The notes: generated from the sequence alone by a model not told the origin. A stretch of 64,000 nucleotides of DNA from Fodinibius sp. Rm-B-1B1-1 (GCF_038594945.1 NZ_JBCFYD010000001.1:1550001-1614000), one strand, 5' to 3'; counted from the first letter of the stretch, positions 30,739 to 44,004 are shown. Numbers and translations: made by a program.

Positions 30739-31395
30739 ATGGTATTAAGTCAAGCAGTTGAAGATTATTTAAAAGCAATTTATACCCTTCAAACTGAGGA
30801 AACGGGGGCTTCAACGACCAAGATTGCTAAATCGTTGGAAGTTTCTTCGGCTTCGGCCACGAATATGGTTAAACGGCTTGATCAAATGGGATTGGTAGAC
30901 TATCAGTCTTATAAAGGGGCACGGCTTACGGAATCAGGTCAAAAGATTGCTCTTGAGATTATACGTCATCACCGACTTTTGGAGCTTTATCTGTTGGAGG
31001 TTATGGGTTATTCTTGGGATGAGGTGCATGATGAGGCTGAAAAGCTTGAGCACCATATTTCAGAGCAATTTGAAGATAAAATAGCCCAACTACTTGACGA
31101 TCCTACCCATGATCCACACGGTGATCCCATCCCCACAAAAGATGGACTGATGCCCGAAATTGAAGGTCAGCCTCTTGTGGACGGACAACCCGATCAGCAA
31201 TACATGGTAAGCCGGGTCAAGGATCAGGATCCGGAACTGTTACGCTACCTCGAAAAAATTGGATTACTGCCGGGCATAAAAGTTACGATTAAAGAAAAAG
31301 CGCCGTTTGAGGGACCTATCACTTTATTGGTTGAGAATGATGAGCAGGTCGTTGGCAACGATGTAGCTAAAAATATATTTGTGGCCGAGTTATAA
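30739..31395 (+). CDS. DtxR/MntR family metal-dependent transcriptional repressor
   Basis: The 218-residue product begins LSQAVEDYLKAIYTLQ, the typical N-terminal winged-helix start of the family, with the recognition region STTKIAKSLEVSSASATNMVKRL (about 24-46). A metal-binding and dimerisation part (about 65-140; HHRLLELYLLEVMGYSWDEVHDEAEKLEHHIS) contains several conserved His, Glu and Asp residues. An SH3/FeoA-like domain occupies the C-terminus (about 150-218). These proteins sense Fe2+ or Mn2+ and repress uptake genes. The gene converges on a TonB receptor gene (6 bp between stops), whose promoter carries TTTAGCC/GGCTAAA palindromes. TTTAG-CCC-CTAAA at 30700-30712 ahead of this gene is a poor match. 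Which metal it senses is not clear. Confidence 0.9.
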   Translation: MVLSQAVEDYLKAIYTLQTEETGASTTKIAKSLEVSSASATNMVKRLDQMGLVDYQSYKGARLTESGQKIALEIIRHHRLLELYLLEVMGYSWDEVHDEAEKLEHHISEQFEDKIAQLLDDPTHDPHGDPIPTKDGLMPEIEGQPLVDGQPDQQYMVSRVKDQDPELLRYLEKIGLLPGIKVTIKEKAPFEGPITLLVENDEQVVGNDVAKNIFVAEL

Positions 31396-31401
31396 TTTAT
31401 T

Positions 31402-33600
31402 CTACTCAAGGCTAATCTGAACTCCCACTAAAAAGCGACGTGTTTGTATGGGGCCGTATACATGGTCAGTGGCAAAGTCATCGCTAAAAGGACGATCAGC
31501 TGCAATAATAGGGTTGGGTTGCGTATAATTCCCGATATTTTTGGCAGTGATATAGCCGGTAATAAATGATCCGAACGGGCGGCTTAGTTTAAGGTTATGT
31601 TCAGAAAATACAGGAGATTCGTTGATATAGCCATCATATTCCGGCAGCTTCATATTTCCAACCCCACGTCCCGAATAGTTTATGCTAATGTTTGTTTTGG
31701 GGATGGTATATGTAGCGGTAAAAACACCAGACCACTTTGGGGCAAAATGAATGGCTGATTGAATACCATGATTAGATTCAAAGACATCTTGATAGGTAAA
31801 TCCTATGGAATACTGCAGTGGCGACGGAAAGTTATGGGCAGCACTTACAGAAATGCCGCGTGAAACAGAGTATCCCTCTAAATTTTTATACCTGATTTCA
31901 TTAGCCTGCGAATAGTCGGGAATAATCTGATTACTAAAATGGGAGTAAAACAGATCCAAATCAATATTAAGCACACTGGTGCCAATATCGATAATTTGGT
32001 TCAAATTTATAGTTCCGTTGACCGATCGTTCGGGGTTTAGCTCTTCTTCAATAACGACACGACGTGAACCTGTTAAGGCCTCGTGTTCTTCGGTAAAAAG
32101 ATTTACAACCCGAAAGCCCGTGCCTCCATTGAGTCGAAGGGTCGTATGGTCAGAAAGGTCAAATTTGGCATTGGCGCGAGGCGAAAAAATAAAGCCGTGT
32201 TGCTTATAATGGTCAATTCGTAAGCCGCCCAGCGCTTTTATGTGTTCGTTAAAGGTATGTTCATATTGGCTAAAAACACCTGGGATAAATCGTATATCTC
32301 GTGAACCTTCGTCGAGGCGTATATCGTCAAAGGTTTGGTTGAGAGCATCAACTCGGGAAGTGGCTCCTACCAGTAATTGACGCCAGGGGGTAAAGCGCTT
32401 ATCCCATATTACGTTTGTAAAATAAATTTGCTGGTCGGCAGTGTAATGATAGGTCCCGTAATAACTGTTTTGACTGTGGTAACTGTACGAAAATTCGGCG
32501 CGGATATCTTGTGATGAAATGGGCAAATCGTAGGTGCCTAACATCTCGAACCGGTGCGTATTAATTGATTCTCCATATATTTGATTACTGCCGCGTTGAT
32601 CATGAGAATATTTCTTGGTACCTCCCAGCCGGTCTTCAAGATAAAGTTTGAATGCCAGGTTAAACTGCCGTGCCTCTGATCTTTCAAAACTCCACTTGTT
32701 GAAAATAGAAAGCTTTTTCCGCTTTGTGATATCAGCAAAACCGTCATCATTATGGTCGAGGAATTTATCAAAATAAAGACCATCGATTCCCAGTAGTGTT
32801 TGGGTTTTTCCCAGTTTTTGCGATCCGGTTAGGGAAAGACTGGCTTCTTCATGGGTAGAAAAAGAACCGTCTATTTCTAAAGGAGCTGCTGTAGCAGGAT
32901 TTTTTGTAATTACATTGATGACTCCTCCCATGGCTTCAGATCCATAAAGTGTAGAATTGGGACCTTTGATAATTTCAATATTACGGATGCTACTGGTATT
33001 AATTCCATTAAGACCATATACAGAAGCCAGTGAACCCATTATGGGCATACCATCTATCAGGATGGCGGTATAAGGTCCATCCATACCATTGATACGTACG
33101 CTATTGGTACCACATACCCCGCAGCTAACTTCTTGGTAGAGCCCATTCAAAAAGTTGACCGATTCCATAAGATTGGCAGCCCCTGTTTTTTGAAGATGCT
33201 CATTGCTGAGAACCTGAACTTTTACGGGGCTTTCTTTAACGAAGGTCTCACGCATAGATCCCGTAACGACTACTTGGCCCAGTTCTTCTGTTTTAGGTTT
33301 AAGGTTTATTTGTACGGTAACAGTCTCGTTATTTTTGATGGATATTTTTTGTAAATGGGGCCAAAAGCCAACGGCAGAAATGGTTAAGTCATATGTACCA
33401 ACCGAAATATCCTTGATGATAAATGATCCCATCTCATCTGTTGGAGAACCTTTTTGTATATCAGCAATGGTAACATTAGCACCGGCAACAGGCTCGCCTT
33501 TACTGATGACCTGTCCTTTGATGGTACCCGAAGATGATTGTGCAAGGGATAGCAGAGGAGTTAATATTAGAATGAGTAAGCACTGACCGAGGAATTTCAT
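31402..33600 (-). CDS. TonB-dependent receptor with carboxypeptidase-like N-domain and CGVCGTN plug motif
   Basis: The start is placed at the ATG at 33600, which begins a good signal peptide (MKFLGQCLLILILTPLLSLAQ). A longer frame to 33675 would run through an operator-like palindrome. The 732-residue product has a carboxypeptidase-regulatory-like domain (about 25-110), a plug (about 120-240) and a 22-strand barrel ending in FLVGVQISLE. The plug holds EVSCGVCGTNSVRINGMDG, with two cysteines in the CGVCGTN form seen in a subgroup of Bacteroidota metal or metallophore receptors. It transports a ligand across the outer membrane using TonB energy. The DtxR-family gene is next to it, so iron or manganese acquisition is likely. 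Confidence 0.9.
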   Translation of the reverse strand: MKFLGQCLLILILTPLLSLAQSSSGTIKGQVISKGEPVAGANVTIADIQKGSPTDEMGSFIIKDISVGTYDLTISAVGFWPHLQKISIKNNETVTVQINLKPKTEELGQVVVTGSMRETFVKESPVKVQVLSNEHLQKTGAANLMESVNFLNGLYQEVSCGVCGTNSVRINGMDGPYTAILIDGMPIMGSLASVYGLNGINTSSIRNIEIIKGPNSTLYGSEAMGGVINVITKNPATAAPLEIDGSFSTHEEASLSLTGSQKLGKTQTLLGIDGLYFDKFLDHNDDGFADITKRKKLSIFNKWSFERSEARQFNLAFKLYLEDRLGGTKKYSHDQRGSNQIYGESINTHRFEMLGTYDLPISSQDIRAEFSYSYHSQNSYYGTYHYTADQQIYFTNVIWDKRFTPWRQLLVGATSRVDALNQTFDDIRLDEGSRDIRFIPGVFSQYEHTFNEHIKALGGLRIDHYKQHGFIFSPRANAKFDLSDHTTLRLNGGTGFRVVNLFTEEHEALTGSRRVVIEEELNPERSVNGTINLNQIIDIGTSVLNIDLDLFYSHFSNQIIPDYSQANEIRYKNLEGYSVSRGISVSAAHNFPSPLQYSIGFTYQDVFESNHGIQSAIHFAPKWSGVFTATYTIPKTNISINYSGRGVGNMKLPEYDGYINESPVFSEHNLKLSRPFGSFITGYITAKNIGNYTQPNPIIAADRPFSDDFATDHVYGPIQTRRFLVGVQISLE

Positions 33601-33613
33601 TGGGTGAAAATAT

Positions 33614-33633
33614 TTTTTAGCCTTAACTAAAAA
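33614..33633. promoter_or_regulatory. Imperfect operator-like repeat upstream of TonB receptor 1
   Basis: TTTTTAG (33614-33620) and CTAAAAA (33627-33633) form an inverted repeat around CCTTAA. It shares the TTTAG-six bases-CTAAA layout with the perfect palindrome at 33654-33671 and lies 14 bp before the receptor start. Candidate second site of the same repressor. Confidence 0.45.
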
Positions 33634-33653
33634 TAATATAAGACATAATAAAT

Positions 33654-33671
33654 ATTTAGCCAAGGCTAAAT
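33654..33671. promoter_or_regulatory. 18-bp palindrome, candidate DtxR/MntR-type operator
   Basis: ATTTAGCC-AA-GGCTAAAT is a perfect 8-2-8 inverted repeat located 54 bp upstream of the TonB receptor start at 33600 (minus strand). The shape fits DtxR/MntR-family operators, and a gene for such a repressor lies at 30739-31395. Binding is inferred. Confidence 0.6.
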
Positions 33672-33711
33672 TCATTTAGGTGTTGGAGTATCTCTCAAGA
33701 TCTACAGCAAT

Positions 33712-33747
33712 AAAAAAGCCCGACTGAATTGGATCAGTCAGGCTTTT
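33712..33747 (-). terminator. Rho-independent terminator after the CbiX-like gene
   Basis: On the plus strand, AAAAGCCCGACTGA (33714-33727) pairs with TCAGTCAGGCTTTT (33734-33747) with one mismatch. Read on the minus strand the stem is followed by TTTTTT. It ends the heme operon and separates it from the next receptor gene. Confidence 0.9.
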
Positions 33748-33767
33748 CTTGTGGGCTGTTAAGTACA

Positions 33768-34742
33768 CTATCTCATTGCTGAGGAAGTGTCAGATAGAGC
33801 ATTTTCTACAGAATTGATCAGAAATGCACTGATTTTCTCATCGGGAAGTAACGTTCGTCCACTCCATTTAAAATCGAGTCCGGATAAACGTTCAGCGACG
33901 GCATCTTCACGTCCGCTGGATGAAAGAAAAAGTGGAACTACAATTACGTCGCCGAATTGGCTCGACTGACGAACAATGGCTCGGAAGTTTTCCTTTGCTT
34001 GGTCATGAATAACCTCTCTTGCATCATCCCGGACGGTTAAGGAAAAGATCTGTTTAAACTCTTTGCCCTTGTTTTGTTGTATTGTCTGAACTTTTTGTGA
34101 AAGTGATTCCATGTTTTGGAGCCACATTTTATTATCACTCTCTCTGCTGGGACCGTGGGCAGCAATAACTACTGTTTCATTAGCGGGATTTTCGCTTAGC
34201 GTGCTAACACGATCATATAAAATTTTGGCCACAATGTCGTGATTATCCAGAGCCGAAGTCATGGTAATTTCGGTATTAATATCAAGTTGTGGAAGGTTTG
34301 GAGGCATCAGCATGCCATGCATGTAATCCGAAGAATCAATCTTGGCTTCAGTCATTTCTACATATTCCTCGGTGTGATGCATCAGGGGCATAGCGCGGTC
34401 GGCCAGGGAATCACGCATCCCAAAGAGATATTCATTTTGCCTGATAATTGGACTATAACTGGAGATAAAAAGTGGTATGGCTACGATGTGCGATACGCCC
34501 TGTTGTTCCAACTGCTGAATAGCATTTTGGAGGGTGACATAGTTGGCCATTCCCCAGGCAAATTCTACGGGATAGGTCTCTTCTAATGGGTCAGCGGCAT
34601 CTTTAACATGTTGATTCCATTCCTCACCACCGCCGTGCGCCATGATAAGTATCCCGGTATCTTGGGCGTGAGATTGGGAATAGCAAAAAGTGATAATAAA
34701 AATTGCTAAAACGCCAGCTATTTTTCGAGGTGATAATTTCAT
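33768..34742 (-). CDS. Exported tandem CbiX/SirB-like (class II chelatase) protein
   Basis: The 324-residue product has a clear signal peptide (hydrophobic 8-22, SHAQ cleavage about residue 26) followed by two sirohydrochlorin-chelatase-type domains (about 28-170 and 188-315). Each has the metal-binding histidine of the family at its first strand: AHGG (His36) and AHGP (His196). Each also has a later strand VAIPLFIS (about 87-94) or VVPLFLS (about 268-274), but the second ligand histidine that normally follows this strand is missing from both halves. Cytoplasmic CbiX/SirB inserts Co2+ or Fe2+ into sirohydrochlorin. An exported copy is unusual. It is the last gene of an operon with HmuY and a TonB receptor, so it probably binds a tetrapyrrole or metal in the periplasm. 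Chelatase activity is uncertain. Confidence 0.85.
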   Translation of the reverse strand: MKLSPRKIAGVLAIFIITFCYSQSHAQDTGILIMAHGGGEEWNQHVKDAADPLEETYPVEFAWGMANYVTLQNAIQQLEQQGVSHIVAIPLFISSYSPIIRQNEYLFGMRDSLADRAMPLMHHTEEYVEMTEAKIDSSDYMHGMLMPPNLPQLDINTEITMTSALDNHDIVAKILYDRVSTLSENPANETVVIAAHGPSRESDNKMWLQNMESLSQKVQTIQQNKGKEFKQIFSLTVRDDAREVIHDQAKENFRAIVRQSSQFGDVIVVPLFLSSSGREDAVAERLSGLDFKWSGRTLLPDEKISAFLINSVENALSDTSSAMR

Positions 34743-34840
34743 GTGTGTAAAGTTATTTTAAATCGTTCGATTGATGTTAGTGATAAAATTTTCCGAAAGT
34801 CATTTGCTAAGGTAATAGGTGACTTCAAGTAAGAAACGTT

Positions 34841-35494
34841 TTAGTTTAATTCTCGGGTACCATTCATTTGGATGGCATATTCAAAGGTGTAGTAACGATC
34901 ATCTTCTGGAGGATACTGTTGGTCGCTCGAAATATCTGGATTGCCCTTGTAGTAGCTTAAGATGCGGATTTTTGCATAATGATCGCCGTCACCGGTGCGT
35001 ACAACAATAGTTTTATCTTCAATGGGGAGAACTGCATGATTGGGTGTTTGTTCCATTCCCGTATAGTTGTACCAACCGTTTTCATCACCAGTAGGAATAG
35101 CAAGAGAATCTTCCGTATCTGTGTTATATCCTTCAGAAGGGGCAATGGTAACCTCATCAAAGGGGATATCAAGAATAACTGCACCACCGTTACCAGGTCC
35201 ACTTACTCCGCTGTTGGTTAATACAGTAGTACTTGAGAATGCCAAGTCCCATTCACTTGACGCGGAATCTTCATCAGCAACGACCTCACCATTTTGAAGG
35301 TCATAGAATGTATAATTAGCAGGTGCACCACGTTCTGCATTGGGATTAGCCGGAACATCTTCGGCAGTGTGCAGCTCAAGTTGTGATTCCGGAACATCAG
35401 GGCCCGTGGAGTCGTCGCTACAGGCAGAAAATAGTAATAGGCTACTTGCAATAAGTGTGATTACGAATAGTGGTTTGTCGTTAAGTGTGTACAT
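34841..35494 (-). CDS. HmuY family heme-binding lipoprotein
   Basis: The 217-residue product has a lipoprotein signal (LLLFSAC, Cys25) and the HmuY pattern: ANYTFYDLQNGEVVADEDSA-like text early on (YTFYDLQNGE), SSEWDLAFSSTTVLTN (about 80-95), and DHYAKIRILSYYKGN (about 170-185). In Porphyromonas HmuY binds heme with two histidines and passes it to the receptor HmuR. Ligand residues differ among homologues, and those of this protein cannot be assigned reliably; histidines occur in TPNHAVLP and GDHYAK. The receptor gene lies 21 bp upstream and the exported CbiX-like gene 98 bp downstream, so the three form one heme-related operon. Confidence 0.9.
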   Translation of the reverse strand: MYTLNDKPLFVITLIASSLLLFSACSDDSTGPDVPESQLELHTAEDVPANPNAERGAPANYTFYDLQNGEVVADEDSASSEWDLAFSSTTVLTNSGVSGPGNGGAVILDIPFDEVTIAPSEGYNTDTEDSLAIPTGDENGWYNYTGMEQTPNHAVLPIEDKTIVVRTGDGDHYAKIRILSYYKGNPDISSDQQYPPEDDRYYTFEYAIQMNGTRELN

Positions 35495-35515
35495 AGTATC
35501 GCTTTTGGTTTAGTG

Positions 35516-37810
35516 TTAGTATAGTTGGAGTGAAATCTGTGCGTAATAAATGCGTCCGGGCAGGTACGAAAGCTGTTGTGGTCGGGTAAAGTCGAAGATG
35601 TTATCGATGCCAAACTGAATCTTATACTTGTCGGCGAATGTTTTTGCAACAGCGGAATTCCACAGCGTATATCCCTCTTCATATTCGCCGGAATCCACAA
35701 ATCCGTTGCCGTTAGCATCAAACCGACCATACCGACCATGCCACCGACCACGAATGTTAGTCTCGATATCCCAAGGTTTGTAATGGTAAAACAGCTTTAT
35801 ATTTGCTGAATGTTTAGACCGATTGAACATAGGCTCATACTTGCTAATCTCTTTTTGGATAGGGTTCCCATTTTCATCCTGAACGGTTTGGGTTTGCTGG
35901 ATTTGGCGTCGAGCATCTAAAAGCTGATATCCCAGTGATGCATTTAGTCCAGAAATGGGATTCCAGCGTATTTGTGTCTCGATACCCTGAGTATAAATTT
36001 GTTCGAGATTAAAGTAGCTATATACCGATTGTCCATTTGTTTTTTCAGCAATGGGGGCTGTTTCAATAAGATCATCCACATTATTTCTGAATGCATTGAT
36101 GCGCAGCTGTAGATCAGGCAGAGGGTAAAGATCGAAGCCCACGTTATATGCCCAGGATCGCTCGGCAGTAATCTCGCTAAGGTTGTCCAGGGGAAGTAGA
36201 ATGCGGTCAATCTTTCCTTCCTTATCTAACTGGGTAAGTTCCTCTTTAACCGTACTCGAACCTAATACCGTATAACCTACCGTGGGGTTAGAAAAGTTTA
36301 GGAAGAGCTGTCTAAAGTCGGGCGCTTTAAACCCACGGCCAACCGAACCGCGAAGCTGAAACCAATCGAAAAGCTCATATCGGGCCGAAAACTTGGGGCT
36401 AAACTGATTAGTATATTCACTGTGAGCATCGTATCGGAACCCGGCAATGAGATCCATCTTATTGGATGGAAGCCATTCGTGCTGTCCAAAAATGAAGATG
36501 TTTTGAAAGTCGGGATTGCCTTTATATCGTTCTGCCCTCAGTTGTTCCCAATTTAAGCCGGTTCCAAAAGTTGAAATATGGTTTGCATCCCATGAATAAT
36601 TCCCACGGATTTCAGCTTTTTGATAGGTTTGTTTAAAGGTATCGCGCTGATAAAGTTGATCATTTTCTTGATATACAAATTCACGCTCGGTTCGGTAGCC
36701 ACTGTAGTGATATTCTGTATCAATATTTAGTTTTGCGTTCACGTTAAAGTGGAAGGATGGTGTCAAGCTGTAGTCTTCCTGGATGGCCTTATCATTTAGC
36801 AAGGTGGGATTATCTTGCGAACCAATAAAGTCCGTGCTTTGCTGGGTTTCATGATAATACCGCGCATGTAAGGCTGTTTGAATTCGATCGCTGATAGCGA
36901 GCTCAGTACGATAGGTGCCGGTATAATTTTCATAATCGGGCACAGTTTGCGAAATAGATCCGGGTACGAGGCTATAGCCGGCAGAGCTGTTGCGATTAAA
37001 TGAAATATCATTTTGCCAGTTACTACTGTTCGATGAAATGTTAGTACCGATATCGAAAGTCTGGTTTGTACCGTAGCGCGAAGTGACATCCATCTCGAAA
37101 GGCCGATTCCCTTTTTCTGTGATGATATTGATAACCCCTGCCATGGCATCACTACCCCATAATGCAGAAGAAGGTCCCTTCATCATTTCAACTTGCTTTA
37201 TATTCCCCACACTTATGCGAGAGAGGTCAAGCGTACCAGCTGTTCTTCCGATCATCGGCTGACCATCAATCATGATGAGTGTATATTCAGGATCAAATCC
37301 CTGCACTTGAACCCCGGTACCGTGGTCGGAGGTTAATACGAGGCCGGTTTGTTCGGCAAGAACATCACTGAGTCGTGTATTGCCAGAATTTCTTATTTCA
37401 TCCTTCTTAATAACCGTAACTGGGGTGGGCACTTCCTCAATATCTTTTCGAGTACGGGTTGCAGTGACTACAACACTGGGCGCCTGGTAACGACGGGTAT
37501 GAAGCATAATCTGTAGTTCTTTTGTAGCATTATGTTTTACCTCTACCTGTTTCTCGGTTGTCTGATACCCTATTTTACTGATTGTGATGGAATGAGTGCC
37601 GGCCATCAGATCAGACAAAAAGAATCTCCCATTTTTATCAGTGATGTCTATCTGGTTATTATTTCCTAAGATCACGTATGCATCAGTTACCGGATCATTG
37701 TTGCTGTTAACAATCCGTCCTTTAATTTGACTGTTTTGTGCGAGACCAGTTTGGGTTAAAAGAAAAACAGAGGCCGTGAATAGCAGAGCTCTCATCATTA
37801 AACCAAGCAT
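35516..37810 (-). CDS. TonB-dependent receptor, likely heme receptor (HmuR-like)
   Basis: The 764-residue product has a signal peptide (cleavage after GLAQ, about residue 25), a carboxypeptidase-regulatory-like domain (about 27-110), a plug (about 120-240: TRLSDVLAEQTGLV, GFDPEYTLIMIDGQPMIGR, KGPSSALWGSDAMAGVINII in parts) and an outer-membrane barrel ending in QISLQLY. FKAPDFRQLFLNFSNPTV (about 507-524) sits where heme receptors of the HmuR/HemR type carry their FRAP and NPNL motifs. The HmuY gene follows by 21 bp, which supports heme as ligand. MM at residues 5-6 gives alternative starts. An element shared with the third receptor gene lies about 50 bp upstream. Confidence 0.9.
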   Translation of the reverse strand: MLGLMMRALLFTASVFLLTQTGLAQNSQIKGRIVNSNNDPVTDAYVILGNNNQIDITDKNGRFFLSDLMAGTHSITISKIGYQTTEKQVEVKHNATKELQIMLHTRRYQAPSVVVTATRTRKDIEEVPTPVTVIKKDEIRNSGNTRLSDVLAEQTGLVLTSDHGTGVQVQGFDPEYTLIMIDGQPMIGRTAGTLDLSRISVGNIKQVEMMKGPSSALWGSDAMAGVINIITEKGNRPFEMDVTSRYGTNQTFDIGTNISSNSSNWQNDISFNRNSSAGYSLVPGSISQTVPDYENYTGTYRTELAISDRIQTALHARYYHETQQSTDFIGSQDNPTLLNDKAIQEDYSLTPSFHFNVNAKLNIDTEYHYSGYRTEREFVYQENDQLYQRDTFKQTYQKAEIRGNYSWDANHISTFGTGLNWEQLRAERYKGNPDFQNIFIFGQHEWLPSNKMDLIAGFRYDAHSEYTNQFSPKFSARYELFDWFQLRGSVGRGFKAPDFRQLFLNFSNPTVGYTVLGSSTVKEELTQLDKEGKIDRILLPLDNLSEITAERSWAYNVGFDLYPLPDLQLRINAFRNNVDDLIETAPIAEKTNGQSVYSYFNLEQIYTQGIETQIRWNPISGLNASLGYQLLDARRQIQQTQTVQDENGNPIQKEISKYEPMFNRSKHSANIKLFYHYKPWDIETNIRGRWHGRYGRFDANGNGFVDSGEYEEGYTLWNSAVAKTFADKYKIQFGIDNIFDFTRPQQLSYLPGRIYYAQISLQLY

Positions 37811-37860: not shown

Positions 37861-37887
37861 TATTTAGAATGGATCTAAATAGCAAGG
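37861..37887. promoter_or_regulatory. 27-bp element upstream of the heme receptor, shared with the siderophore receptor
   Basis: CTATTTAG (37861-37868) and CTAAATAG (37876-37883) are an inverted repeat with seven bases between them, followed by CAAG. A copy at 43978-44004 matches at 22 of 27 positions. On the minus strand both read CTTGCTAT..., so they may include a promoter as well as an operator. Confidence 0.6.
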
Positions 37888-37957: not shown

Positions 37958-39079
37958 TTATTTCGATCGGATAGGATTAGAACTGAAGTTATTTTCAGCT
38001 ACTTGTATCCGCTGCGTTCTACGTCGTCGCCAAATAATAAAGCCTGTGATAGATAGGATGGGAGGGGCTAATCCGGCTACGCAATAAATTAGTTTAGTTA
38101 GTACGCCACCCCAGTTTCCGAAATGGAGAGGATACGCAACGCTTAAAATATGATAGCTCCAATGTTTTTCTCGAATTAAGAAACGTTCGGTTTCCTCACC
38201 TGTTTGGGGATTGTATTCAATATGATTGGAGAATTCGTAATGGATTGGCCAGTCGGTATCCATACCTCCAAAGATGGTGATGGACTCTTTCGCAGTAGGT
38301 GGCATTTCGATGTAGGTGGGGGTAAAACCTGCAAGGTCAGTTGTTGATTTATCGATAAGGTTATCGAGTGAAACAGTAACGGAGGGAGGATCGGGAATAG
38401 GTTTTTGTTCACCTTTCGCGAGCTGATATACATTTGTCCCAACTACAATCAGAGATAGTAGAATGCCAGTTAGGGCCATTAACAAATTCATTAATAAAAC
38501 CCATACGCCCACACACCGATGAAGCTCGGATGAACCGCTGTGAAGGTTTCGAAAACGGGGACGTATTTTGAAGGTAAGTACCCGCCAAATAGATTTTCGG
38601 TAGAACCAAAATCCTGTGATGAGCGAGCCGATAAAACAAAGGCCTGCGAAAAAGAGTAATACTTCTCCCCAAAATCCTGCATGAAGTTTATAGTGAAGGT
38701 TTAACAGCCAGTAGGAAAAGGTTTCGTTGCCGTGCAGGTCACGCAAAATTGTTGCTTCTGTGGGATGTATATATAGAATACGTCTTCCTAAATCAGGCCT
38801 TCGTACTTGAGCTTCGATAGCCCGATTTGGTGTATCAGGAATATGTGAAATTCGCACGCCCCAGTTTGGATACTTTTCTTGTACAGCATGATAAGCTGCA
38901 TCAATATTGACAGAATCCTGGCTGTTATCTAAGTAAATAACATCTCTTTGAAGGTAATGTTCAATCTCATCATCAAATACAAGAAGTGAGCCAGAGAAAG
39001 CCATCACCAATATAAAAAGCCCGGCAATGAGACCGAGCCATTTATGAATGCCCAGTAAATCTTTCTTTGATATCCCCAT
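37958..39079 (-). CDS. PepSY-associated membrane protein (putative ferrisiderophore reductase subunit) 1
   Basis: The 373-residue product belongs to the PepSY_TM family. An N-terminal helix (LLGIHKWLGLIAGLFILVMAFSGSLL, about 7-32) contains a conserved histidine in HKWLG; three more membrane helices lie near 140-165, 190-220 and 325-350. Periplasmic PepSY-like segments (about 35-130 and 235-310) lie between. Conserved histidines in the helices may bind heme. Relatives FoxB and FpvG reduce ferric siderophores at the inner membrane. It is the last gene of an operon with the CxCC protein, a second PepSY protein and a DUF4198 protein, downstream of the siderophore receptor. Confidence 0.85.
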   Translation of the reverse strand: MGISKKDLLGIHKWLGLIAGLFILVMAFSGSLLVFDDEIEHYLQRDVIYLDNSQDSVNIDAAYHAVQEKYPNWGVRISHIPDTPNRAIEAQVRRPDLGRRILYIHPTEATILRDLHGNETFSYWLLNLHYKLHAGFWGEVLLFFAGLCFIGSLITGFWFYRKSIWRVLTFKIRPRFRNLHSGSSELHRCVGVWVLLMNLLMALTGILLSLIVVGTNVYQLAKGEQKPIPDPPSVTVSLDNLIDKSTTDLAGFTPTYIEMPPTAKESITIFGGMDTDWPIHYEFSNHIEYNPQTGEETERFLIREKHWSYHILSVAYPLHFGNWGGVLTKLIYCVAGLAPPILSITGFIIWRRRRTQRIQVAENNFSSNPIRSK

Positions 39080-39101
39080 TTACAGCACTGCCCGTTAAAC
39101 G

Positions 39102-39425
39102 TTAGTTATTCAAGATATCATTAACCTCCAGCATTACAGAGGCTTCTTTTAAAGCGTGACAAATAGTATGGTATTCAGTTTTTGTAAAGCACATTTGTAC
39201 TTCTTTTAACTGTGTATTGATGATCATCTTTTCTGTACCGTTGCCAAAGGATATCGATCGTTTATTGAAATTCACGTCCAAAAGAGTATTAGTAAACTCT
39301 TTAAAGCTTTTGGGACTAAACTTTAGTAACAAGTTTTGATAATGAAGGATTATGTTATCACAGCAATGGCATTGTTCAACACTCAAGTTTTCTCTCTGAC
39401 TTAAGATTGTATTTGTTTTCTCCAT
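39102..39425 (-). CDS. Small CxCC protein (DUF6686-like)
   Basis: The 107-residue product is soluble, without a signal peptide. A CHCC motif (residues 19-22 in VEQCHCCDNIIL) lies near the N-terminus, followed by a mixed alpha/beta region with cysteines at about 78 and 89. The pattern resembles DUF6686 proteins of Bacteroidota, which often lie beside PepSY and TonB receptor genes. No function is known. The upstream PepSY gene ends 3 bp before its start, and the downstream one starts 22 bp after its stop, so the three are one operon. A role in handling iron in the cytoplasm is possible. Confidence 0.7.
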   Translation of the reverse strand: MEKTNTILSQRENLSVEQCHCCDNIILHYQNLLLKFSPKSFKEFTNTLLDVNFNKRSISFGNGTEKMIINTQLKEVQMCFTKTEYHTICHALKEASVMLEVNDILNN

Positions 39426-39428
39426 ATG

Positions 39429-40646
39429 TCATGCAGGTATTCGTTCTTTGGGAGCGTCTGATTTTTTTCTTCGTTTGGCTAAGCGCTCTTCCCGAGCCCA
39501 CTGGCGTTTTTTGCGATCCCACCAGATGATAAATCCTGTAACGGGCAGACTGGCACAAATTAAGCTGGCAAAAAAAGCAATAATTTTACCAGGCAATCCG
39601 CCAATGGCCCCGATGTGGATGTCGTAATTCATGGCCACCAACTTTTCGCCGGCGTTTTTATCTTTATACCGATCTGCTGCAAGCAGTTCGCCTGTATATT
39701 GGTCAAATTCGAGATAACTTCGTCCGTAATACGTTTCCCCATCGGGACGTACCGTAGCGCTAATCGTAGCCTGAGAATCTGCTGGAGCAACAAGGGCAAT
39801 ACTGTTGGCTTTGGGGTATTGATTCCAGGCATTGTTGTATGCTTTATCCATGGGATTATCAGTGGTTTTAGTATCTGGAATAGTAGATACCACTTTTTCT
39901 CCAGGACCCGCAGGTAATGCATATTCACCGGTCCCTAAAAAGTGCATACTTTTTTTGGCAAAAGGGAAATACCAGTAAAGCCCGGTAAAAGCAATAATGA
40001 GCGAAAGCATTAGGAAATAAAACCCCAATACATTATGTAGATCATAGTTGACACGTCGCCATGTTGAGCCCCATTTTATTTTAAAGCTTTTTTGCTTGCC
40101 GGCCTTATTCCATTTTTTAGGCCACCAAAGAATCATCCCGCTAATGAGCAAAATGATAAAAACTACCGTACTCCAAACTACGATAGGTTGACCAATAGGG
40201 GTAGCTAAAAGCAGACTCCAATGAATACCTTTAATGATCTGAAAGAAATCGGTCTTCTCGTTGACAATACCTTCTATTTTGCCATTATAGGGATTGATAT
40301 ACGCCGTTTTGTAAGATTTCATGCTCCCAAAGTAGAACCAAGAGTCGGCACCGGCTTCATAGTACATGGCCGACCAGTTTTTTTGGGGATTCTTGTAGGT
40401 TGTTATCCCGTAGGAAAGCTGTTCGACACCAAGTGCATCGGCTGCTTTGGATTGGAGTTCTTCGATGGGTAAATGTTGCTGGGTTTCGGGCACTTGATCC
40501 GCAAAAAAGGTGTCGTGCCGCACCCAGTCGGAAATTTCTTGGTGAAATACATAAAGACAGCCGGTAATACTTAAGATGAGTACCACCAGTCCCGTGATGA
40601 GACCGAGCCAACGGTGAAGAAATAAGACAATCCCTTTGAAATCCAT
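39429..40646 (-). CDS. PepSY-associated membrane protein (putative ferrisiderophore reductase subunit) 2
   Basis: The 405-residue product is a second PepSY_TM family protein. The first helix contains FLHRWLGLITGLVVLILSITG (in parts HRWLGLITG, about 10-30), with three more hydrophobic segments near 155-180, 205-235 and 370-395. A conserved WSLLL(A)TPIG and the segment RRVNYDLHNVLGFY (about 200) carry the histidines common in the family. A charged tail rich in Arg and Lys follows the last helix. It shares the fold but little sequence with the protein at 37958-39079, so the pair may form a heterodimer. It lies 16 bp after the DUF4198 gene. Confidence 0.85.
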   Translation of the reverse strand: MDFKGIVLFLHRWLGLITGLVVLILSITGCLYVFHQEISDWVRHDTFFADQVPETQQHLPIEELQSKAADALGVEQLSYGITTYKNPQKNWSAMYYEAGADSWFYFGSMKSYKTAYINPYNGKIEGIVNEKTDFFQIIKGIHWSLLLATPIGQPIVVWSTVVFIILLISGMILWWPKKWNKAGKQKSFKIKWGSTWRRVNYDLHNVLGFYFLMLSLIIAFTGLYWYFPFAKKSMHFLGTGEYALPAGPGEKVVSTIPDTKTTDNPMDKAYNNAWNQYPKANSIALVAPADSQATISATVRPDGETYYGRSYLEFDQYTGELLAADRYKDKNAGEKLVAMNYDIHIGAIGGLPGKIIAFFASLICASLPVTGFIIWWDRKKRQWAREERLAKRRKKSDAPKERIPA

Positions 40647-40662
40647 CGTAGGTTATTTAGAT

Positions 40663-41400
40663 CTATTTATTAGCTTGTATAGTGTAAGTAGCTGTATGAC
40701 GTATAGCCTCGAAGTCGGTTCCTTGGAATGATCCAGATTGTTCCTCGGTATAAATAACTTCCAAGACATATTGGCCACTCCAAGGCAAGTTGAATGTAGT
40801 TTTTCCGTTTTCATTTGTAGTAACCGTCTTGGTCCATTGATCGGCAATGGTAACGATTACTTCTTGTTTAGCAACAGGTTTGCCGTTGAATAGAACGGTA
40901 AGATTGACTTGGTTTTCAGCTTGATATCCGCCAGAACTGTTATCTTTTATAAAAAGTTTAGGCTGGTTGGAAATAGTAGCTTCTGTTTTACCAGGATTTC
41001 CTATAGCGATCGAGGTAGAGGCATAAAAATTAGGTTTCAAAATGCCGAGATCATATTCCCGCCAGTCAACAACATTATTGCGTGTACTTTCGAGAATGAT
41101 AGTATAGCTCCCATTTTGGTCTGGGGTAAATTCGGCCGTGTAACGTTGATTACCTGCTACGGGTTCAAGTTTTGTTTTGTCGCCATTGGGGGCAACAAGC
41201 CAAAGGTCAAAATCGTCAACATCCTTAAAATTTTCGTCCACCTTTTCATAATAATTGTAGGTGTATTCTCCATAGTAGACATGTACTTGCTGCGTTTTTC
41301 CAATAGTGCCCGTTGCGTCGGTTTCCAGCCAGAGATTATGGGCTGATAGCTGGTTGATAATACCAAATACAAGGAGAAATAGTATCGTTAATTTTTTCAT
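40663..41400 (-). CDS. DUF4198 family periplasmic protein
   Basis: The 245-residue product has a signal peptide (FLLVFGIINQLSAHN, cleavage about residue 20). The mature protein starts HNLWLETD, as do DUF4198/NikM-like proteins, whose N-terminal histidine can bind metal. Two beta-sandwich regions are visible (about 20-140, then 150-240 with LTVLFNGKPVAKQEVIVTI). In metal-uptake loci such proteins are periplasmic or membrane-anchored metal-binding helpers. It follows the siderophore receptor gene after a hairpin and begins the PepSY operon, so it likely assists ferric-siderophore handling. Confidence 0.75.
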   Translation of the reverse strand: MKKLTILFLLVFGIINQLSAHNLWLETDATGTIGKTQQVHVYYGEYTYNYYEKVDENFKDVDDFDLWLVAPNGDKTKLEPVAGNQRYTAEFTPDQNGSYTIILESTRNNVVDWREYDLGILKPNFYASTSIAIGNPGKTEATISNQPKLFIKDNSSGGYQAENQVNLTVLFNGKPVAKQEVIVTIADQWTKTVTTNENGKTTFNLPWSGQYVLEVIYTEEQSGSFQGTDFEAIRHTATYTIQANK

Positions 41401-41416
41401 GATAAAATGAAATAAG

Positions 41417-41440
41417 AAGCCCCTCTCAAATGAGGGGCTT
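41417..41440 (-). terminator. Hairpin between the siderophore receptor and DUF4198 genes (weak or partial terminator)
   Basis: AAGCCCCTC (41417-41425) pairs perfectly with GAGGGGCTT (41432-41440). On the minus strand a broken T-tract (CTTATTT) follows. As it sits inside an apparent operon it may reduce rather than stop downstream transcription. Confidence 0.65.
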
Positions 41441-41450
41441 TGTTATGGAG

Positions 41451-43838
41451 TTAGAATTTGTAGGTGAATCCGGCAGTGATATTACGAGGACTCTGGGGAT
41501 TTACCGTAGACCATCCTTTGTAGTATTCCTCATCGGTGAAGTTGTTGAACTTCAGGTTAAGGCGATAGGTCTTTGCATCATAAAATATAGATCCGTTAAG
41601 AACGGTGTACGAAGGAATGGTGAATTGTCCGGTGTTTGAGCGATTGATGACATAGTTATCGCTTGCATAATTACCGCCGAATCCGAGTCCAAATCCTCTG
41701 AGTGACCCGGAAGTAAATCGGTAGCTAATCCAGCCGTTCAATAGATCTGAGGGACCGGCCTCTTCGGGACGACGATCTTGGAGGCTTGCGGTGCTGGTAC
41801 GTGTAATCTTACTCTCGTTATGGCTGTATCCGCCTGTAATATTTAAGCCGTTTACCGGTGAAGCATTTACCGTTAATTCAAAACCGCGGCTGTACTGTTC
41901 GCCATCTTGAATAGAATATTGGGCACGGTTGGGATCCGAGCGAACAATATCGGAGACTGTAATATCGTAATAACTTGCTGTGGCGGTCAGGCGATCATTG
42001 AATAGGCTTGATTTAACCCCCACTTCCCATTGGTTGGCCTGTTCTGGAGAAAAGCTTTCTACCGAACCATCACCCTGGGTGACAGGAGCGACGTTGTTGA
42101 AGCTATTCATATAGTTGGCAAAAATAGATACTTTATCTTCAATTGGTTTTAAGACTAATCCAAATTTGGGAGAGAGGGTCGTTTGCTCGTAGTCATCAGC
42201 TTCGGTTTCGAGGCTGCCGTTGTTTACAAAGTGATCGAGGCGAACGCTGGCCATTACCGAAAGCTGAGGCAATACATCTACCACATCTGAAACATAAGCG
42301 GAATATACTTGTTGCTCCGTACGGCTTTTTGAAACTCCGGCACTGGCCAACATAGTGTCCACTTTAGCTTTTGAGATGCCGGGTACGGAATTGTCGTTGT
42401 CCAGATTAAACATATCGTAACCGATATATCCTGTATTGTTACCGATCAGGTTTTCTTGCAAGAAATCGAGCCCAACAACTACGCGGTTTCGGAGTCCACC
42501 AAGTTCAAAATCTCCGTTAAAGTTCTGTTGGATATTGGTACCAATAGTTGTGGAGTTTTGATCGCTGATATAGCGTGCATAGTTATTGCCGGGAATTCCG
42601 ATTGTAGATATGTAGCTATAATAGCCATCTGACTGTGCTGAGCTACGTGACAGAACGGTTTGAGAACTCCAATTGTCAGAAATTTGATAGTTCATTTCTC
42701 CCTGTAGGCGAAATACAGGATTGCTGATGGTTAAATCATTTGTGGTGTACGAGTTCTCATTATCGTAATTAAGTTCCGAAATGTTGTTGTCTTCCAATGG
42801 TGCACTACGGTTCAGAAACAACATCGTTTGATTTGTTCCCTCAGAATGATAAAGCTCAGTATTGATCAGGAATGAGAGATCTTCATTAACCTGGTAGGAA
42901 AGGGAAGGAGCAAGAAAATAAGACTCATTGAATCCAGCATCCTGGAAACTATTACTTTTGTGGTAGGCGGCATTTATGCGAAGTGCTACGTCTTTTTCAG
43001 TGCTAATGGGCGTATTAACATCAGCGGTAACACGGTTAAGACCAAAGCTGCCTGTACGGTATGAAATATCACCACCAAAATTATCCGAAGGTTTCTTTGT
43101 GACTACATTTATGAGTCCACCATAAGAAGTAACGCTACTTCCAAAGAGTGTAGCAGAGGGACCTTTGATAAGCTCGACACGCTCTACATTTGCGGGATCA
43201 AGTGAGCCATTTGTCAATGAAGGAAGACCATTTAACATGTTTGGTTGTATCGTAAACCCGCGCATGGTATAATAGCCAGCTCCATCACCGCCGCGACCTG
43301 TAGATTCCCAAAGCTTGAATACACCGGGAGCATTATTAAGAACGTCTTCAAAGTCAGTAATAACCTGATCTTCAATAAGTTCAGTATTGATGGTATTATA
43401 AACCTGTGGGTTTTCTAAATCCTGAACAGGAAGCTTGGCGACATATTCACTGAATTCAGTACCAAATTTGTTGATTTGAGCTCCTTCAACGGTGATTTCC
43501 TGGAGCGACTCATTGGCATCAGAAAGGGTAATATTGATAGACAGTTCTTCACCACTTTCAACGGAGATAGATCTTCGTTGGTTGGCATATCCCACTGCCG
43601 AGACCACCAATGTATAATCGCCGGCAGGAATATCAGTAATGGAGTAATAGCCCTGGGCATTACTGGCAGAGCCAAACTGCGTACCCTGAAGGGCAACATT
43701 GATATCAGCAATTGGTTTTGATTCGGTGTTGGTAACTTGGCCTTCAATAACAGCTGACTGTGCAAAAGCTGAAGCAGTCAAGCTAAAACAGAAGAGCATC
43801 GTTAATAGAAGCTGATTAATATGTTCTTGGTACTTCAT
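41451..43838 (-). CDS. TonB-dependent siderophore receptor
   Basis: The 795-residue product has a signal peptide (SLTASAFAQ, about residue 26), a carboxypeptidase-regulatory-like domain (about 28-115), a plug (about 140-270: YYTMRGFTIQPNMLNGLPSL and VERVELIKGPSATLFGSS in parts) and a barrel ending in NITAGFTYKF. YKGWSTVNPQSPR near the C-terminus is the FhuE/FhuA-type end of ferric siderophore receptors. It takes up iron chelates across the outer membrane. The PepSY reductase-like genes lie directly downstream on the same strand. An element shared with the heme receptor lies 140 bp upstream. Confidence 0.92.
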   Translation of the reverse strand: MKYQEHINQLLLTMLFCFSLTASAFAQSAVIEGQVTNTESKPIADINVALQGTQFGSASNAQGYYSITDIPAGDYTLVVSAVGYANQRRSISVESGEELSINITLSDANESLQEITVEGAQINKFGTEFSEYVAKLPVQDLENPQVYNTINTELIEDQVITDFEDVLNNAPGVFKLWESTGRGGDGAGYYTMRGFTIQPNMLNGLPSLTNGSLDPANVERVELIKGPSATLFGSSVTSYGGLINVVTKKPSDNFGGDISYRTGSFGLNRVTADVNTPISTEKDVALRINAAYHKSNSFQDAGFNESYFLAPSLSYQVNEDLSFLINTELYHSEGTNQTMLFLNRSAPLEDNNISELNYDNENSYTTNDLTISNPVFRLQGEMNYQISDNWSSQTVLSRSSAQSDGYYSYISTIGIPGNNYARYISDQNSTTIGTNIQQNFNGDFELGGLRNRVVVGLDFLQENLIGNNTGYIGYDMFNLDNDNSVPGISKAKVDTMLASAGVSKSRTEQQVYSAYVSDVVDVLPQLSVMASVRLDHFVNNGSLETEADDYEQTTLSPKFGLVLKPIEDKVSIFANYMNSFNNVAPVTQGDGSVESFSPEQANQWEVGVKSSLFNDRLTATASYYDITVSDIVRSDPNRAQYSIQDGEQYSRGFELTVNASPVNGLNITGGYSHNESKITRTSTASLQDRRPEEAGPSDLLNGWISYRFTSGSLRGFGLGFGGNYASDNYVINRSNTGQFTIPSYTVLNGSIFYDAKTYRLNLKFNNFTDEEYYKGWSTVNPQSPRNITAGFTYKF

Positions 43839-43977: not shown

Positions 43978-44004
43978 CTATTTAGATTAATTCTATATAG
44001 CAAG
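43978..44004. promoter_or_regulatory. 27-bp element upstream of the siderophore receptor
   Basis: CTATTTAG (43978-43985) and CTATATAG (43993-44000) followed by CAAG. It matches the element at 37861-37887 at 22 of 27 positions, including the spacing of the half-sites and the flanking CAAG. Confidence 0.6.

Follow-up and report, generated by a model that had tools for sequence, protein, structure and literature searches.

How bacteria remove iron from heme without an oxygenase is an open question. HmuS, the CobN-like protein of Bacteroides, was reportedly characterised only in 2025, and we know of no identified source for its electrons. It holds one heme between two lobes by means of a methionine and a histidine, and has His-carboxylate pairs along the site where demetallation is proposed to occur (PMC12583661). 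FetB/IhtB of Porphyromonas gingivalis is described as a heme-binding protein and a putative ferrochelatase or reverse ferrochelatase (PMC10913741, PMC13227078), and a role in stripping heme of its iron has been proposed for it (PMC10913741, PMC13227078, PMC13402209). A pairing of cbiX with hmuY surfaced in the literature searched only as labels in one figure legend of a glycoside hydrolase paper, where the two stand side by side in Rhodothermus marinus (PMC6987092).

Here we describe an operon in which a TonB-dependent receptor and an HmuY-type lipoprotein are followed by a CbiX-like protein with the predicted fold of a chelatase. In its salt-loving hosts this protein probably handles imported heme, perhaps releasing the iron, a task for which related bacteria would use quite different proteins. 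Beyond the earlier, sequence-only reading of the locus, the present analysis brings in a shared operator, the apparent replacement of HmuS or HemS, four-lobe and cytosolic variants, and the FetB/IhtB precedent.

The operon and the predicted fold of its third product

The window, the 64-kb stretch of DNA analysed here, comes from a genome of 3.41 Mb and has the following features.

33712-33749, minus strand: intrinsic terminator at the operon end (16-bp stem, U-rich 3' side, -30 kcal/mol, z -7.8)
33768-34742, minus strand: putatively exported CbiX-like protein of 324 aa with a predicted two-lobe class II chelatase fold (Pfam CbiX PF01903, E 1.8e-10, and structural model)
34155-34157, minus strand: codon of His196, end of strand 1 in lobe 2 (invariant, 43/43 homologues)
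34635-34637, minus strand: codon of His36, end of strand 1 in lobe 1 (invariant, 43/43 homologues)
34665-34742, minus strand: signal-peptide-like N-terminus, residues 1-26, MKLSPRKIAGVLAIFIITFCYSQSHA followed by QD (direct reading)
34841-35494, minus strand: HmuY-type lipoprotein, lipobox LFSAC (Pfam PF14064, E 3e-15)
35516-37810, minus strand: TonB-dependent receptor, hmuR-like (Plug PF07715, 4e-22; barrel PF00593, 4.6e-41)
37863-37879, minus strand: operator, 17-bp inverted repeat TTTAGATCCATTCTAAA, 53-69 bp 5' of the receptor start
37958-43838, minus strand: upstream neighbour operon of siderophore-type TonB receptor, DUF4198, PepSY_TM, DUF6686 and PepSY_TM (Pfam/family profile matches)

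The sequence-only reading had proposed the minus-strand order receptor, HmuY, CbiX-like protein, with gaps of 21 bp between the first two genes and 98 bp between the last two, closed by a strong terminator. All three open reading frames are present at the coordinates listed, and the terminator is a 16-bp hairpin with a U run whose span is 33712-33749 rather than 33712-33747. As in hmu operons, where HmuY adjoins the TonB receptor HmuR, the HmuY-type gene here lies next to a TonB receptor, the closest family models of which are vitamin B12 and heme/hemoglobin receptors at scores below their cut-offs. The HmuY-type lipoprotein matches PDB entry 8b6a (E 1.2e-13) and HmuY itself (3h8t, 3.6e-6), and its Cys25 is invariant among 26 homologues.

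The neighbour operon is counted as an associated element, not as part of the hmu unit. It includes a small Cys-containing DUF6686 protein (39102-39425), and a DUF6686-like protein just under the Pfam cut-off is encoded directly after the CbiX-like gene of a Rhodothermus-type locus (L109:6457-6804). On the other side of the terminator, the boxes TTTAGCCTTAACTAAA (33616-33631) and TTTAGCCAAGGCTAAA (33655-33670) lie in the next TonB receptor ORF (31402-33675), within its 5' end as annotated; translation probably begins further on, at the Met of MKFLGQ. The ORF is convergent with a gene for a DtxR/MntR-FeoA regulator (30739-31395).

An AlphaFold model of the CbiX-like protein, computed from an alignment of 20 homologues, reached pLDDT 91.5 and pTM 0.86 and has the bilobal alpha/beta architecture with pseudo-twofold symmetry that defines class II chelatases. 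It matches SirB of Bacillus subtilis over its full length (residues 28-322, Z 20.7), the coproporphyrin and protoporphyrin ferrochelatases at Z about 17-18 (CpfC 18.0), Paracoccus CbiX at 17.2, CbiK at 16.9, the exported FetB of P. gingivalis at 16.8 and the exported, periplasmic CbiK of Desulfovibrio at 16.7. The matches to SirB, CpfC and CbiK fall within residues 23-322. The protein is accordingly predicted to be a two-lobe class II chelatase fold, an assignment that for both halves draws on the model and the full-length SirB match, the Pfam CbiX match covering the first half alone (residues 40-94). This bears out the two CbiX/SirB-like halves proposed earlier, together with the likeness to SirB and CbiX. 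A PDB sequence search with the single protein gave one match, a weak one to CbiX (E 0.55), and the family profile matched FetB marginally (E 0.5), with His196 aligned to the FetB GHGTEH motif.

The N-terminus, with KxxxRK, a hydrophobic core and SHA/QD, reads by eye as a type I signal peptide. A similar N-terminus is common to the homologues except for one nested clade, which supports the export proposed from the sequence. The clade (100/100, nested within exported members) comprises three proteins without a signal peptide, those of L040, L044 and L130; in the first two, the first possible start after an upstream stop leaves no space for one. All three genes lie at a distance from HmuY and have no operator of the kind described below, so that export, HmuY linkage and operator are missing together.

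Conserved gene order and a shared operator

The CbiX-like family is present in 19 of 98 relatives, those named being Balneolaceae (Fodinibius, Aliifodinibius, Gracilimonas), and in 47 of 394 genomes of the phylum. The sequence-only reading had set down beforehand that lack of a conserved pairing with HmuY or TonB receptors in related genomes would count against it. The reading passes this check: 18 of the 43 homologues, from two classes of the phylum, have a co-oriented HmuY gene upstream, and since the order receptor-HmuY-CbiX-like recurs to this extent it exceeds chance. The distance to HmuY is at most 120 bp in 16 of these loci and 485 bp and 804 bp in the others, a small extra CbiX gene occupying the 804-bp interval. 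The linked members span three deep clades, made up of Balneolaceae-type two-lobe, four-lobe (~560 residues) and Rhodothermus-type proteins, and the linkage label changes 9 times on the family tree as against 14 in shuffles. Within the window's genus, all 7 HmuY-bearing genomes have a family member directly downstream of HmuY, and 4 of the 5 genomes that lack HmuY also lack the family. Many carriers place the gene apart from HmuY.

Several variants accompany this pattern. The four-lobe versions of ~560 aa (L052-L054, L125-L128, L131) have an N-terminal pair of lobes that lacks both strand-1 His residues, with APDRGF in the first lobe, and a C-terminal pair that retains both. An extra 203-aa CbiX protein (Pfam E 4.7e-12) is encoded between HmuY and the two-lobe protein at L129:8172-8783 (G159). 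Exported lipoprotein CbiX-like genes that keep a His-Glu-His set in lobe 1 occur in L132-L136 and L139 (Chlorobi-like) and in L137 and L138; often there are two, flanking a PepSY_TM_like_2 gene next to a TonB receptor, and in L137 and L138 a single one adjoins a TonB receptor and HmuY. HmuY proteins with multiple domain matches, of 350-370 aa, are found in many Balneolaceae, and one of 489 aa has several such matches (L045:6014-7483). We considered a PepSY_TM protein as an obligate electron-supplying partner and rejected this because such neighbours occur in just 8 of 43 loci; it survives as an idea.

The operator is the sole exact TTTAGA-N5-TCTAAA in the window. The loci collected for holding the CbiX-like family or HmuY total 1.10 Mb and contain 31 exact copies, where a first-order model predicts 0.14; the background for this enrichment is the remaining sequence of those loci. 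Nearly all the copies (L038, L046-L050, L112-L117 and others) lie 5' of one of three kinds of gene, encoding an hmuR-type receptor, an exported CbiX-like protein that stands alone, or HemS, the last in L063, L069 and L074. Allowing one mismatch, 17 of the 18 linked loci have the operator 5' of the receptor. Of the 22 exported stand-alone members, 19 have it 5' of the CbiX-like gene and two others (L036, L053) 5' of the leading gene in their run. It is found at none of the three cytosolic homologues and in 24 of 5000 background stretches. Because the stand-alone exported homologues thus share an operator with the receptor operons, their expression is apparently coordinated with that of heme uptake. 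The operator may resemble the alphaproteobacterial Irr box. For a group that has received little study, it gives a starting point for work on how heme and iron control genes, and it allows stand-alone genes to be assigned to the heme system by prediction.

Two observations concern the surroundings of the operator in other genomes. In eight of them a 194-204 aa HTH protein with weak, below-cut-off similarity to IS1595 transposases is encoded divergently from the heme receptor, with the operator region in common (L038:4139-4732, L039:12004-12600, L041:12125-12730, L042:3842-4426, L043:11777-12382, L058:11124-11735, L064:10865-11479 and L070:11472-12071); it is possibly a domesticated transposase acting as a regulator. 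In G028, a 131-aa remnant of a receptor N-terminus with a near-operator copy lies directly before a four-lobe CbiX gene (L053:9393-9788), which suggests a decayed linked receptor-HmuY pair.

Residues, genome content and possible roles

Across the 43 homologues His36, His196, Met65, Asp240, Pro270 and Gly277 are invariant, Arg238 is kept in 42 and position 239 is Asp or Glu in all. It had been noted from the sequence that His36 and His196 are kept and that both halves lack the second canonical His, and this holds throughout the family: every homologue has the strand-1 His in each lobe, and none has the second in either. Its slot is taken by Ser97 in lobe 1 (42 of 43 homologues) and by an unconserved position in lobe 2. 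The metal-inserting enzymes pair the strand-1 His with a second His after PLF (Glu in HemH) in one and the same lobe, the second being essential in Paracoccus CbiX (PMC4063343); without this pair the CbiX-like protein does not qualify as a full member of that group. Glu279 was considered as a HemH-like stand-in and rejected, as Glu is found there in just 19 of 43 homologues. Since neither lobe has the second His or a conserved Glu in its place, the chelatase chemistry of the protein could have been lost. The acid of half 1 is swapped as well, the Glu of the His-Glu-His set in the distant exported lipoprotein relatives of Chlorobi-like genomes aligning with Met65, and lobe 2 retains its His and two carboxylates (position 239 and Asp240).

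The window's genome encodes its own ferrochelatase. It has no HmuS/CobN (PF02514), no HemS match, no heme oxygenase, which is absent also in 56 relatives, and no FeoB over cut-off; PF02514, the CobN/Mg-chelatase H domain, is likewise not among the Pfam matches of the CbiX-like protein. Elsewhere the receptor-HmuY pair is followed by other genes. In G058, which has no member of the CbiX-like family, these are small membrane genes and a 1355-residue CobN/HmuS, and in G029, G051, G061, G016, G050 and G044 it is HemS, in most cases accompanied by an ABC importer. A CobN/HmuS-type gene was absent from all 42 Rhodothermia-type carriers tested. One genome (G007) has both HemS and the CbiX-like family, so the exclusion between these two is not absolute. 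The best reading is that the CbiX-like protein fills the slot that HmuS or HemS with its ABC importer fills elsewhere.

That the protein handles heme, iron release and carriage taken together, is probable. More specifically, we tentatively favour, at just under even confidence, a periplasmic heme-processing protein of an hmu-type operon that most likely aids iron release. According to this model, heme captured by HmuY at the cell surface would pass through the TonB receptor into the periplasm, as the families of the two proteins suggest. The CbiX-like protein may then clamp the heme in its interlobe cleft, His36 and perhaps Met65 contacting one face and His196 with the Asp/Glu239 and Asp240 carboxylates the other, and help to free the iron, the job of HmuS in Bacteroides or of HemS and an ABC importer in sister genomes. 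The Met/His binding of heme by HmuS is comparable with the invariant Met65 and two His residues of such a clamp. Counting against this reading are the possible loss of chelatase chemistry, the presence of both HemS and the family in G007, the many carriers with the gene apart from HmuY, the lack of a FeoB match over cut-off as a route for the freed iron, and PepSY_TM neighbours, a possible electron source, at no more than 8 of 43 loci.

Somewhat doubtful, though a serious contender, is a periplasmic heme carrier or buffer, in which the old chelatase cleft would bind heme (bis-His or His/Met) and pass it on whole with its metal kept. The loss of the second catalytic His in all members and the replacement of the half-1 acid by Met65 both point towards carriage, one strand-1 His per lobe would fit a two-sided heme clamp, and the evidence from operon and operator applies equally. 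However, the operon has no inner-membrane heme permease or HemS after the CbiX-like gene, the genome has no HemS match, and the His and two carboxylates of half 2 are of the pair type proposed for de-chelation in HmuS.

It is unlikely that the protein binds a non-heme ligand of the same iron regulon, such as free iron, an iron-siderophore product or another tetrapyrrole, for example coproheme. The neighbour operon, with its siderophore-type receptor, PepSY_TM proteins and a one-mismatch operator copy (43981-43997), is consistent with such a ligand, as is G009, where the CbiX-like gene is part of a siderophore-receptor/PepSY_TM-type operon in a genome without HmuY. Against this, HmuY is the tightest and commonest partner of the family and its characterised members bind heme, and the predicted fold is that of tetrapyrrole chelatases.

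Uroporphyrinogen methyltransferase (TIGR01469) has no match in the window's genome, which is 97.7% complete, compared with matches in 13 of 14 control genomes; the genome does not, on this evidence, make sirohydrochlorin, which is therefore not a plausible substrate. A conventional sirohydrochlorin chelatase of the siroheme or vitamin B12 pathway, to which the Pfam CbiX match, SirB as best structural match, a methyltransferase in about half of the carriers and the cbiX label of the neighbour in the Rhodothermus paper (PMC6987092) might point, is highly improbable and was rejected on the missing methyltransferase (unmatched over cut-off in the other half of carriers too), the lost second His, the apparent export and the absence of a cobalamin riboswitch from the window and nine related loci.

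Comparison with known systems

Returning to heme processing with iron release, a wider proposal, possible but less secure than that role itself, is that Rhodothermia-type bacteria release heme iron in the periplasm by a small soluble enzyme derived from class II chelatases, with one His per lobe, as an independently evolved counterpart of HmuS under its own heme/iron operator, the co-regulation persisting after relocation of the gene. If the same slot is filled, a soluble protein of ~300 residues would be far easier to study than the 1450-residue membrane protein HmuS.

Of the described proteins, SirB of B. subtilis and CbiX-L have the same bilobal fold, seen in the full-length match to SirB, but are cytoplasmic, carry both catalytic His residues in one lobe and act on sirohydrochlorin. 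CbiK-P of Desulfovibrio vulgaris (PDB 2xvz) is likewise an exported two-lobe class II chelatase, although it binds cobalt through the canonical set that includes the second His, which the window protein lacks. HmuS shares its locus with HmuY and HmuR, works on heme in the periplasm or at the membrane and, as noted above, uses Met and His to hold a single heme between two lobes (PMC12583661). In contrast to the 324-aa window protein it is a class I protein of ~1450 aa with unrelated sequence, and it does not co-occur with the CbiX-like family in the Rhodothermia-type genomes tested. FetB/IhtB (PDB 9b86) is a lipoprotein encoded, without HmuY alongside, in the iht operon, which has an ABC importer of its own, whereas the window protein has what by eye is a type I signal peptide. 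The two have in common a class II chelatase fold, apparent export and a TonB-dependent receptor in the system, which at this locus is co-encoded in an order that recurs in 18 of 43 homologues, and among exported proteins of this fold associated with a TonB receptor FetB/IhtB is the closest precedent.
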